A DNA stretch of 34,552 bases from Candidatus Methanomethylicota archaeon (GTDB lineage Archaea > Thermoproteota > Methanomethylicia > Culexarchaeales > Culexarchaeaceae), in assembly GCA_020833005.1 (NCBI GenBank), contig JAJHRD010000014.1, forward strand, positions 1 to 34,552, given 5' to 3'. Below, piece after piece: positions 9,871 to 20,927 of this stretch. The first letter of the stretch is position 1. Each line of letters opens with the position of its first letter. A model generated the notes under the pieces. That model made no database searches. It was given only the letters and a program-made list of their open reading frames with translations, and was not told where the DNA came from. The translations under genes were made by a program, and so were the position numbers.

Positions 9871-9902
9871 ATTTCCTCATGAAGTGATAATCATGAGGAA
9901 AT
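9871..9902 (+). promoter_or_regulatory. Start-codon hairpin of first paralog (SD in loop)
   Basis: ATTTCCTCATG (9871-9881) and CATGAGGAAAT (9892-9902) are exact reverse complements: an 11-bp stem with the 10-nt loop AAGTGATAAT. The loop holds the SD-like GTGAT (9884-9888), and the right arm holds the start ATG 9893-9895 and the next codons. If transcribed, the start codon would be base-paired and the SD exposed. As DNA it is also a palindrome that a dimeric regulator could bind. Confidence 0.6.
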
Positions 9903-10534
9903 ATATAAACAAAAAATACATAACCATTCTTTCAATAATAATTGTAAGCATCATTTTGTTGTATAATTTTTTCACATGTCCAGACTATATTATTTCAGCT
10001 GGATTCGATCCATTCAATAGATCTTTGATTTGGTGTGAAAAAAGCCGCTTCAAATTTAATAGTACGATTGTTCATTATAGTGGTTTTCTTGGTGAGGCTG
10101 ATTTTGGGTTAATTGCATATTTCTATGCGCCAATACACATAACAAATCCACAAGAAATTCTCCATATAACCGTTTTAGTTGAGAAGATAAGTGAGAAAAC
10201 GTATAATCCATTGGTAAAGGGATTCGCCATAGATATTGAGGGGGTCACATTATTCGACTACTATAATGATACAAACATACACATATACGCCTATACTGGT
10301 TCCAAATCTAAGATATCTTTATTCAATAATTCAACATATTTTTATTATGATATTAAATACATACACGATTATCTTCCAAAAACTTTGTATGTACGTATTG
10401 ACTATGCAGTTCATGTAATTATAAATCCATATGCTAAGATATGGTATAGCGAATTCAAATACATAACCACTGGATTCCATGTAAAAGTCTATAGTGGAAG
10501 CATAACAATCCCAATAACAATAATACCAGAGTAA
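9893..10534 (+). CDS. Membrane-anchored protein, tandem paralog 1
   Basis: 213 residues of unknown family. Residues about 1-27 (MRKYINKKYITILSIIIVSI...) are a positively charged start and one hydrophobic segment, so it is a type II anchored or secreted protein with the rest outside the cell. The outer part is predicted beta-rich and carries several N-glycosylation sequons (NRS, NST, NDT). It is plainly homologous to the next gene over its full length, with identical blocks such as HYSGFLGEADFGL and TYNPLVKGF. Start ATG 9893 rather than GTG 9884, because GTGAT precedes it by a few bases and the paralog has the same arrangement. No catalytic motif is seen. Possibly a surface or pilin-like accessory protein, but that is a guess. 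Confidence 0.8.
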   Translation: MRKYINKKYITILSIIIVSIILLYNFFTCPDYIISAGFDPFNRSLIWCEKSRFKFNSTIVHYSGFLGEADFGLIAYFYAPIHITNPQEILHITVLVEKISEKTYNPLVKGFAIDIEGVTLFDYYNDTNIHIYAYTGSKSKISLFNNSTYFYYDIKYIHDYLPKTLYVRIDYAVHVIINPYAKIWYSEFKYITTGFHVKVYSGSITIPITIIPE

Positions 10535-10552
10535 TAACATTCATAGTCACAC

Positions 10553-10573
10553 CATGATACGGTGACCATCATG
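10553..10573 (+). promoter_or_regulatory. Start-codon hairpin of second paralog (SD in loop)
   Basis: CATGAT (10553-10558) and ATCATG (10568-10573) are reverse complements around the loop ACGGTGACC. The loop contains the full SD GGTGA (10561-10565), and the right arm ends with the start ATG 10571-10573. The stem is shorter than at the first paralog, and its bases differ, but the geometry is the same. Confidence 0.5.
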
Positions 10574-11194
10574 AAGAAATACATAAACAGAAAATACATA
10601 ACCATTTTTTCAATAATAATCTTAGCAATCATTTTGTTGGGTAACTATTTTACATGTCCATGTTACTTAACTCCGATTGGATTAGATTTGTTTAATAGAT
10701 CTTTAAGTTGGTTTGAAGATATTACGTTTAATAGTACGGTGATTCATTATAGTGGTTTCCTTGGGGAAGCTGATTTCGGATTGATTGTATACTTCTATGG
10801 AGCATTTCACCCAAAAAATTCACGAGAGATTACTAAGGTAATCGTTGTAGTTGAGAAGATAAGTGAAAGAACATATAATCCATTGGTAAAGGGGTTTATC
10901 ATAAACATTGAAGATGTTACCTTATTTGACCATTACAATGGCACCGATATGCATGTATATGCCTATACTCGTTTCTATTCAAAGAGATCTTCATACAATT
11001 TGTCGGAATCTTTCCATCACTTTTACCCCATGTACTATCACCTTCCAAAAACGCTATATGCACGTATTGATTATACAGTTCATGTAATCATAAATCCGTA
11101 TACTGAAATATGGCGTAGTGGTTACGAGTATATAGCTGTTGGGTTCCATATGAAAATCTATAGTGGGAGCGTAATAATTCCAATAAACTTATGA
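10571..11194 (+). CDS. Membrane-anchored protein, tandem paralog 2
   Basis: 207 residues and a full-length homologue of the preceding gene: same N-terminal anchor (MKKYINRKYITIFSIIILAIILL), same YFTCP just after it, then conserved HYSGFLGEADFGL, VEKISERTYNPLVKGF, VTLFDHYN, LPKTLYARIDY.VHVIINPY and a final beta-strand region. The region between VTLFD and LPKTLY is the most divergent, which suggests an exposed variable loop. Sequons NRS, NST and NGT are present. ATG 10571 has GGTGA five bases upstream. It lies 36 bp after paralog 1, so the pair is probably one transcript made by local duplication. It almost touches the convergent DHH gene (3 bp). Function is unknown. Confidence 0.8.
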   Translation: MKKYINRKYITIFSIIILAIILLGNYFTCPCYLTPIGLDLFNRSLSWFEDITFNSTVIHYSGFLGEADFGLIVYFYGAFHPKNSREITKVIVVVEKISERTYNPLVKGFIINIEDVTLFDHYNGTDMHVYAYTRFYSKRSSYNLSESFHHFYPMYYHLPKTLYARIDYTVHVIINPYTEIWRSGYEYIAVGFHMKIYSGSVIIPINL

Positions 11195-19161: not shown

Positions 19162-20280
19162 TCAATGTACAAATTTTGAGAACCATTCAATCCACATCAA
19201 CCTAACAGTATGAATGAATACGATTAAACCCTCCAATACGAGTATAAGTATCGTTCCCACAAGCAGTACAAATGGATTTCCACCAGATAAATCAATGAAT
19301 ATCCCACTCAACAGTGAATGCACAAGTGCAAGGGCGAGAATCCTAAGATATGAAACTGTGTGGCTAAGGGATTCAATTGCAGTTTCAAATGTACCTATGA
19401 AACCATCAACAGGATCACCTGAAAGGAAACCGCCAACGCACATGATCATTAAAGGCAATACCACACCATAAGTTGTTAATGGATTATAAATCCAAGCTTG
19501 AATATCAAGCTTATTCATAAATATCGAAATTATAAATCCAATGTAAAACCATAATCTGGCAAATGAGAATGTGAATGCCTTCAAATACTCACCACTCCAA
19601 ACCTTATTCACAAAGTCAATAAACATCCCAGAAGATAGATGTATAGCGGCAATCAATATACACAGCTTAATCGCAGCCATAATATTATCCATAAAGGAGA
19701 AGGGCAAAGTAACATTAACCAATGGGATGGAGAGTTTGATTGGTAAGATATTAACGTGATAACCGAAGAATTCACCAAAAAGCATCCCCATTATGGTGGA
19801 GGATAAACCACATGTAAATAGGACTCCACCATTATCAACAATGTAGCTAAGCATACCATTAACCCTACCATTGAAAAGCATCATAAGTAAACCGAATTCC
19901 ATCAATATCAAACCATGACCTATATCCGCAAACATAATACCAAAAATTAGTGGCAAGAAGAATGTTAACATTGGAACTGGATTAAAACCATGATAACCAA
20001 AATTAAGATATGAAGATGTAAGTTTTAATGATGGAGTAATGATCCATGTACGGAAGAATGATGAAAACGTAGGAGCACTTGGGGGAGTATAGAATCTATG
20101 CTCATAAAGTTCAGTAGCACCATTACCATCATAGTAAGTGTAATGGGAATAGTGATTAACACACAATAACAATATATAGACTAGGAGAAGGGTGAACACT
20201 ATCAAGTAATAGTAAACTGCGAAACTGGGAGCTTCATACTCCAACAATGATAACGGGTTAACCAAGGGCTTTGCGAACAT
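19162..20280 (-). CDS. Free-standing membrane half of V-type ATPase subunit I/a
   Basis: About 372 residues against roughly 600-700 for a complete subunit I. What is present is the C-terminal proton-channel half: PVPMLTFFLPLIFGIMFADIGHGL, FGEFFGY, then SHTVSYLRILALALVHSLLS with the essential channel Arg, and a proper end LEGLIVFIHTVRLMWIEWFSKF. The cytosolic stalk-binding half is absent; in its place are about 50 residues with a single extra membrane segment (YYYLIVFTLLLVYILLL). No other ATPase subunit gene is in the window. Start ATG 20280 has GGTGA five bases upstream; GTG 20289 is in frame but would bury it. It diverges from an RHH regulator across a repeat-rich control region. It may be a specialised paralog rather than part of the housekeeping ATPase. 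Confidence 0.85.
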   Translation of the reverse strand: MFAKPLVNPLSLLEYEAPSFAVYYYLIVFTLLLVYILLLCVNHYSHYTYYDGNGATELYEHRFYTPPSAPTFSSFFRTWIITPSLKLTSSYLNFGYHGFNPVPMLTFFLPLIFGIMFADIGHGLILMEFGLLMMLFNGRVNGMLSYIVDNGGVLFTCGLSSTIMGMLFGEFFGYHVNILPIKLSIPLVNVTLPFSFMDNIMAAIKLCILIAAIHLSSGMFIDFVNKVWSGEYLKAFTFSFARLWFYIGFIISIFMNKLDIQAWIYNPLTTYGVVLPLMIMCVGGFLSGDPVDGFIGTFETAIESLSHTVSYLRILALALVHSLLSGIFIDLSGGNPFVLLVGTILILVLEGLIVFIHTVRLMWIEWFSKFVH

Positions 20281-20295
20281 AATATTCACCCATAA

Positions 20296-20350
20296 TATTC
20301 TGGAATATTTTGAATATATAAATCTTATTATTTCAGAATATTTCAGAATA
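20296..20350. promoter_or_regulatory. Divergent operator: 20-bp inverted repeat made of 10-bp units
   Basis: TTTCAGAATA is repeated exactly at 20331-20340 and 20341-20350. The left arm 20296-20315 matches the reverse complement of this 20-bp block at 17 of 20 positions, giving four half-sites around the spacer 20316-20330. The spacer carries ATATAAAT, readable as a TATA box in both directions. The layout would let a ribbon-helix-helix dimer pair bind each side and shut both divergent promoters. It lies six bases beyond the SD of the subunit I-like gene and 56 bp before the RHH start. Confidence 0.7.
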
Positions 20351-20405
20351 ATAATTCACAAAAATGTTAATATTGCAGATGAAATATAATCAATATAGGT
20401 GGATT

Positions 20406-20927
20406 ATGGGGAAATTAACAACTGTTGAATTAGATGATGATATAGTGGAATACATTAACTTATCGATTAAGAAGGGGAAATTCAGGCATTTGAAGGAATT
20501 CGTCAATTACTGTTTAAAATTAGCTACAGTTTACACGATTGATGAATGGGATGTTGATAAGGGGATGTTCTACATTCATCCATGCAGAGTCACATTAATA
20601 CCTTCAGATGCACTTTCATCACTAATGAAATATATACCTGAAAAATCTAGAAGTGAAGCTGTAGAAGCCATGAGTTCATGTTTAAAGCCTAGACTAAGAT
20701 TCTTCCGCCTCTCACCAAGGAATCCAGAACACATACCCAAAATACTTGAATTACTAACATTACATGGACTTGGAAGATTCACATTACATGATAATGAAAC
20801 CATAGAAGTTTCATATCCAGTTCTACCAGGTGAAATTGTGAAGGAACTTTTGGAATCATTACTTGAAGTTAAAATGGAAGTCTTGGAAGCAACAAAGGCT
20901 GCATGCATATTCAAAATATTGAAATAA
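20406..20927 (+). CDS. Ribbon-helix-helix regulator with unknown C-terminal domain
   Basis: 173 residues. Residues about 3-40 (KLTTVELDDDIVEYINLSIKKGKFRHLKEFVNYCLKLA) show the beta-strand and two helices of the RHH fold. Residues about 45-173 form a second domain I do not recognise; its end, GRFTLHDNETIEVSYPVLPGEIVKELLESLLEVKMEVLEATKAACIFKIL, has the look of a small-molecule or redox-sensing domain, but no metal motif such as that of NikR is present. ATG 20406 has GGTGG just upstream and starts the RHH exactly; the frame opens at 20364. It faces the short subunit I gene across the 20296-20350 operator, so it probably represses itself and that gene. The ligand is unknown. Confidence 0.75.
   Translation: MGKLTTVELDDDIVEYINLSIKKGKFRHLKEFVNYCLKLATVYTIDEWDVDKGMFYIHPCRVTLIPSDALSSLMKYIPEKSRSEAVEAMSSCLKPRLRFFRLSPRNPEHIPKILELLTLHGLGRFTLHDNETIEVSYPVLPGEIVKELLESLLEVKMEVLEATKAACIFKILK

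Follow-up and report, generated by a model that had tools for sequence, protein, structure and literature searches.

A divergently arranged RHH-V4R regulator and short-arm ATP-synthase subunit a paralogue in Culexarchaeales suggest a switchable part of the enzyme

The stretch of DNA analysed here, called the window throughout, comprises 34,552 nucleotides and is contig C14 of a 2.23-Mb genome that is 95% complete. Sequence comparison places the genome close to Ca. Culexarchaeum, and the window RHH protein shares 92% identity with the corresponding protein of Ca. Culexarchaeum nevadense. The locus of interest consists of two divergent genes, subI2 and an RHH-V4R regulator gene, with 116 bp between them that hold the predicted operators and promoter elements (Table 1). 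The genes for an S9 peptidase (assigned by Pfam), Rad50, Mre11, HerA and NurA in the neighbourhood are ordinary chromosomal genes, named mostly by inspection. Elsewhere in the window, two similar membrane-anchored proteins of about 210 aa, with function unassigned, are encoded in tandem (9884-10534 and 10562-11194). The genomes G001 and G002 used for comparison belong to the genus of the window, while G005 belongs to another family of the same order, Culexarchaeales.

Table 1. Genes and predicted control elements of the divergent pair, in window coordinates
Feature	Position	Strand	Basis or remark
subI2, short-arm A/V-ATPase subunit a (subunit I) paralogue, 375 aa	19162..20289	-	PF01496, conserved residues, dN/dS, paralogue clade
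RHH-V4R one-component regulator, 173 aa	20406..20927	+	start by genome comparison; family; hhalign; Foldseek; dN/dS
Left operator palindrome (predicted), AATATTCTGGAATATT	20294..20309		between subI2 TATA box and start
Right operator palindrome (predicted), window form TTATTATTTCAGAATATTTCAGAATAATAA	20325..20354		includes tandem TTTCAGAATA
Putative subI2 TATA box, TTTATATA on minus strand	20315..20322	-	identical in all three Culexarchaeum genomes
Putative subI2 BRE, overlapped by right palindrome	20323..20328	-	proposed from position only
Candidate RHH-gene TATA box, TTAATATT	20367..20374	+	proposed; TTAATA core kept in three genomes
Shine-Dalgarno-like AGGTGG ahead of the RHH ATG	20397..20402	+	direct sequence; present in G002, weak in G001

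The product of subI2 matches PF01496 with 59.1 bits against a curated cut-off of 30.7. It spans the membrane domain only, and a new N-terminal TM helix stands in place of the cytosolic peripheral-stalk arm. Loss of the arm is complete in Culexarchaeum and partial in G005 and in G053, a more distant archaeon, where the proximal lobe is retained. The preliminary description had read the gene as a half-size V-ATPase subunit a; the truncated membrane subunit stands, and comparison shows a paralogue beside a full-length subunit I. Because the arm is missing, subI2 was classed as a paralogue and not as the subunit a of the holoenzyme. Like subunit a of A/V-type ATPases (subunit I; PF01496; NtpI, yeast Vph1), subI2 has the homologous membrane domain with the two c-ring arginines and the conserved Glu and His positions. 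Unlike it, subI2 lacks the cytosolic arm in Culexarchaeum, has just its proximal lobe in G005 and G053, exists next to a full-length copy and, in Culexarchaeales, is divergent from a dedicated regulator. A literature search, limited in its coverage of subscription journals, found no previous description of an arm-less subunit a.

Two essential arginines of V-ATPase subunit a face the glutamate of the c-ring. R316 and R363 of subI2 align with arginine positions of the V-ATPase a subunits of solved structures, and these two residues and the other ion-path positions checked (E302, H324, E353 and H360) are kept in all five paralogues; residue roles in subunit a follow published work (PMC7367684). 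The dN/dS of subI2 was 0.09-0.11 in three comparisons with the reading frames intact, which indicates purifying selection, and a pseudogene was rejected on this ratio. A missing domain and an uneven distribution could point to a decaying duplicate without function. Ratios of about 0.1 throughout, intact frames and key residues preserved even in G053 make such decay extremely improbable.

The full-length subunit I gene lies within a joint complex-I/A-ATPase gene cluster in G001, G002 and G005; in the window genome it is interrupted by a contig end. The same cluster occurs in G004, where no RHH-subI2 pair was found. Complex-I-like and A-ATPase genes are interleaved in this one Culexarchaeales cluster (L018, L058-L061, L026), with full-length subunit I after NuoN and a 173-188-aa HTH-like/TM protein preceding subunit C in each case. 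A single c-subunit gene and a single gene for subunit C coexist with full-length subunit I and subI2, and the search for a subI2-specific c subunit found none.

The second gene had been described as encoding an RHH protein with an unrecognised C-terminal domain. Its start was corrected from 20364 to the ATG at 20406, because an indel in G002 breaks the upstream frame. The reading as a probable RHH regulator with a C-terminal sensor remains supported, and the domain is now recognised as V4R-like by hhalign and Foldseek. The modelled N-terminus has helices at residues 11-22 and 29-43, and the strand is absent from the monomer model. The RHH-V4R family occurs in 63 of 398 Thermoproteota genomes (E <= 1e-3) and has no Pfam or NCBIfam model except for weak matches to RHH_1, seen in 3 of the 27 family members; the window protein falls below the Pfam threshold. 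The dN/dS of the RHH gene is 0.07-0.16.

Pfam/NCBIfam and PDB sequence searches gave the C-terminal domain no name and no Pfam V4R match; among PDB sequences the V4R protein MJ1460 came closest, with an E of 0.31 that is not significant. Pairwise hhalign comparison of the C-terminal 125 residues with V4R domains gave 94.3% over 118 columns (E 1.1e-7), while 20 column-shuffled controls and one reversed control reached at most 5.5%. Structure prediction, a check proposed in the preliminary description, pointed to the same fold. A first AlphaFold model built on 11 sequences gave only weak TRAPP-Bet3, YslB and H-NOX fold matches. With the second AlphaFold2 model, built on 27 sequences (mean pLDDT 84.5), the best 16 PDB matches in Foldseek were all V4R-type domains of the PoxR/MopR/DmpR phenol sensors, at modest scores (best E 3.3e-3, TM-score near 0.4). 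Bet3 is a known homologue of V4R, for which hydrophobic ligands have been proposed (PMC2253512).

Profile and model comparison thus identify the C-terminal domain as V4R-like, with the PoxR/MopR/DmpR sensor fold. It is called V4R-like rather than V4R because the canonical Cys motif is missing: KCxxxGDxxC is absent from all members of set A3 and invariant in V4R set A2. Fold and linear order are shared with the V4R domains of PoxR, MopR and DmpR, as are the glycine motifs in most RHH-V4R family members; the first of these motifs is missing in the Culexarchaeales members. In contrast to PoxR/MopR/DmpR, the domain is fused here to an N-terminal RHH instead of AAA+/HTH. The RHH repressors MetArc, CopG and ParD compare with it in an N-terminal RTT/LTT strand, putative here, followed by two helices, and in palindromic sites beside their own gene; they differ in that the protein described here has a V4R-like C-terminal sensor and, as partner, a membrane subunit rather than a toxin or metal transporter. 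No described RHH-V4R fusion was found in the literature search, in which subscription journals were covered to a limited extent.

Neighbours of the RHH-V4R genes vary. In f10, the most represented family, they often adjoin a PAC2-like protein and a membrane protein of about 80 aa (L071-L091), and those of family f32 have archaeal pilin-like neighbours. No subunit I neighbour was found beside the other RHH-V4R genes examined. The pairing with the short-arm paralogue is known here from Culexarchaeales only, where the divergent pair reported for the window proved to be recurrent: the search across genomes found it kept in four, G000, G001 and G002 of one genus and G005 of another family. It was not found in G003 (42% complete), G004 (45%) and G006 (76%), incomplete genomes in which absence is weak evidence.

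Across the four genomes the pair sits at two unrelated genomic positions. In G005, a 463-aa subI2, divergent from the RHH gene, has its place in the complex-I/A-ATPase cluster between the genes for subunit C and NuoL. Nothing occupies this place in Culexarchaeum, whose pair adjoins the S9 peptidase gene instead. Since the G005 and Culexarchaeum loci differ, gene-order comparison indicates that the RHH gene and subI2 stayed together while their location changed. The G005 arrangement also bears on whether subI2 belongs to some other coupled ATPase or ion-translocating complex; a rotary ATPase with one stalk, or a partner of the surrounding complex-I-like machinery, would be examples. The retained proximal lobe in G005 and G053, the location of both genes within the complex I/A-ATPase cluster and the position of the G005 subI2 in line with subunit C are consistent with such a complex. 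Nevertheless, the Culexarchaeum subI2 is without even the proximal lobe and its gene lies outside the cluster, and membership of an alternative complex is considered unlikely.

The phylum search revealed one further short-arm copy with a full-length neighbour, that of G053. This 419-aa subunit a (L116:7983-9242) is encoded in an A-ATPase operon, with the B subunit gene on one side and that of the full-length subunit a on the other. No significant RHH-V4R match was obtained in the G053 genome (best E 0.1). In a tree built from membrane-domain columns only, the five short-arm proteins, G053 included, group together with support of 90/88, below the usual threshold. The short-arm paralogue is probably older than its pairing with RHH-V4R and tied to the ATP synthase, because the G053 copy lies in an ATP-synthase operon and its genome gave no significant RHH-V4R match.

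The intergenic region was analysed by comparison with the congeners. The exact tandem repeat of TTTCAGAATA at 20331-20340 and 20341-20350 was confirmed, as was the match at 17 of 20 positions between the left arm 20296-20315 and the reverse complement of 20331-20350. When mismatches are allowed, the longest inverted repeat of the region runs from 20296 to 20350, with 26 pairs and a 3-nt gap. Taken by itself it stands out only moderately, since 26 of 2000 dinucleotide shuffles reached its score. The right arm of G002 forms a perfect palindrome of 30 bp, TTATTATTTCAGAATATTCTGAAATAATAA, which none of 2000 shuffles equalled; the right arm of G001 is a near-perfect palindrome with light mismatches, equalled in 23 of 2000. 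On these sequences, the inverted-repeat signal is convincing through the comparison with congeners and not from the window alone. The symmetry of the proposed four-half-site operator is thereby upheld; its layout is better read as two palindromes flanking the subI2 TATA box TTTATATA, which we take to fit the archaeal promoter rules of consensus and spacing.

The left palindromic core nearer subI2, the 16-bp AATATTCYRGAATATT at 20294-20309, is the same in the window and G002, and G001 carries its exact reverse complement. Likewise, where G002 has TTCTGAAA, the distal right 8-mer of the window, TTTCAGAA, is its exact reverse complement. Relative to L016/L017, the left core and window positions 20341-20348 are thus micro-inversions, exact reverse complements between congeners. 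They would fit template switching inside palindromes, and the inverted palindromes would stay usable as sites for a symmetric dimer. From these flips, the tandem TTTCAGAATA is read as a variant of a palindrome, private to the window genome. A tandem half-site as the ancestral operator was rejected, the arrangement being inverted in both congeners. The 67 bp with the palindromes diverge by 13-15% between the three genomes; the approximately 50 bp on the RHH-gene side diverge by 16% between the window and G002 and by 45% between G001 and either of them.

The repeats are not widespread. In the four genomes searched, the 18-mer palindrome core matched nowhere else at fewer than 3 mismatches; allowing as many as 3 gave 5-8 matches per genome, compared with 1-4 for a reversed control pattern. 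A genome-wide regulon was rejected, as the 18-mer is without close matches elsewhere in these genomes. Palindromes beside homologous pairs, another proposed check, recur in G001 and G002, while the G005 intergenic palindrome differs, so that the operator sequence is common to the genus only. Of the three outcomes that the preliminary description had named as refuting, two did not arise inside the genus. In G005 another 28-bp palindrome, AATAGAGAGAAAAACTTTTCTCTCTATT, lies ahead of the RHH gene (L018:8557-8584). When the regions upstream of 16 distant RHH-V4R genes were searched for palindromes, no motif was common to them.

The palindromes might be bound by another factor, the RHH-V4R gene being a mere neighbour with an unrelated regulon, as could be expected from relatives without subI neighbours elsewhere and from an operator that is not conserved in G005. 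Against this, the two genes remained divergent neighbours at two unrelated loci, and the G005 RHH promoter also has a palindrome, which leaves an unrelated factor improbable. Regulation as such has good support from comparison. Repression of subI2 together with autoregulation is the favoured form, because the right palindrome overlaps the putative BRE and the left one lies between TATA box and start. RHH-V4R is predicted to bind the two operators as dimers or a tetramer. Once bound, it would block TBP/TFB and polymerase and presumably repress subI2, and the right operator, just upstream of the RHH promoter, would permit autoregulation. A ligand or other signal at the V4R-like domain may then release repression.

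The bioenergetic role of subI2 we infer from its residues and architecture. It would be an alternative A-ATPase subunit a in which the ion half-channels and both c-ring-facing arginines are kept and the stalk-docking arm is lost. When expressed, it may enter Vo, and full-length subunit a would then be its rival for the shared c-ring. In the Vo of Thermus, both EG peripheral stalks attach to the soluble arm of subunit a, and the contact that this arm makes with subunit d keeps proton leak in check; Vo on its own is normally inhibited (PMC7367684). A Vo containing subI2 would not be tied to the stator, and ATP synthesis could be lowered or uncoupled from the ion gradient. Loss of the arm need not create a leak, because yeast Vo is described as proton-impermeable even without the a-d contact (cited in PMC7367684). 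Depending on residual inhibition, the arm-less Vo may leak or may compete silently. Both would be costly if unregulated, which could account for a dedicated repressor with operators over the promoter.

Competition could also be the whole function. In that case subI2 would be no channel but a competitor or an assembly factor: by occupying c-rings or forming an arm-less Vo it would leave fewer complete ATP synthases, and the RHH-V4R switch would thereby store the enzyme or turn it down with no ion passage. The complete or partial loss of the arm, the co-occurrence of a single shared c gene and the inhibition of isolated Vo (PMC7367684) agree with this; a pure decoy should nevertheless have relaxed E302, H324 and E353, and the ion-path residues checked are all kept. 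We regard this as a somewhat unlikely but serious alternative. The best explanation, to which we give about even credence, is a ligand-responsive autorepressor gating an alternative, stator-uncoupled a-subunit. It is a doubtful extension that, in archaea, a dedicated arm-less subunit a under ligand control converts some c-rings into stator-free ion pores and so makes a transcriptionally gated uncoupling A-type ATP synthase.

RHH-V4R proteins form an uncharacterised class of archaeal one-component regulators, present in about one sixth of the sampled Thermoproteota genomes. Rotary ATPases are regarded as machines in which coupling is obligatory and each complex has a single subunit a. The sequences compared here suggest that the ATP synthase of hot-spring archaea like Culexarchaeum has a part that can be switched and may dissipate energy. 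A conserved paralogue that has the ion path, lacks the coupling arm and in some lineages has its own sensor-repressor would be a natural test of arm function, and may offer anaerobic thermophiles a route to dump or redirect the ion gradient.
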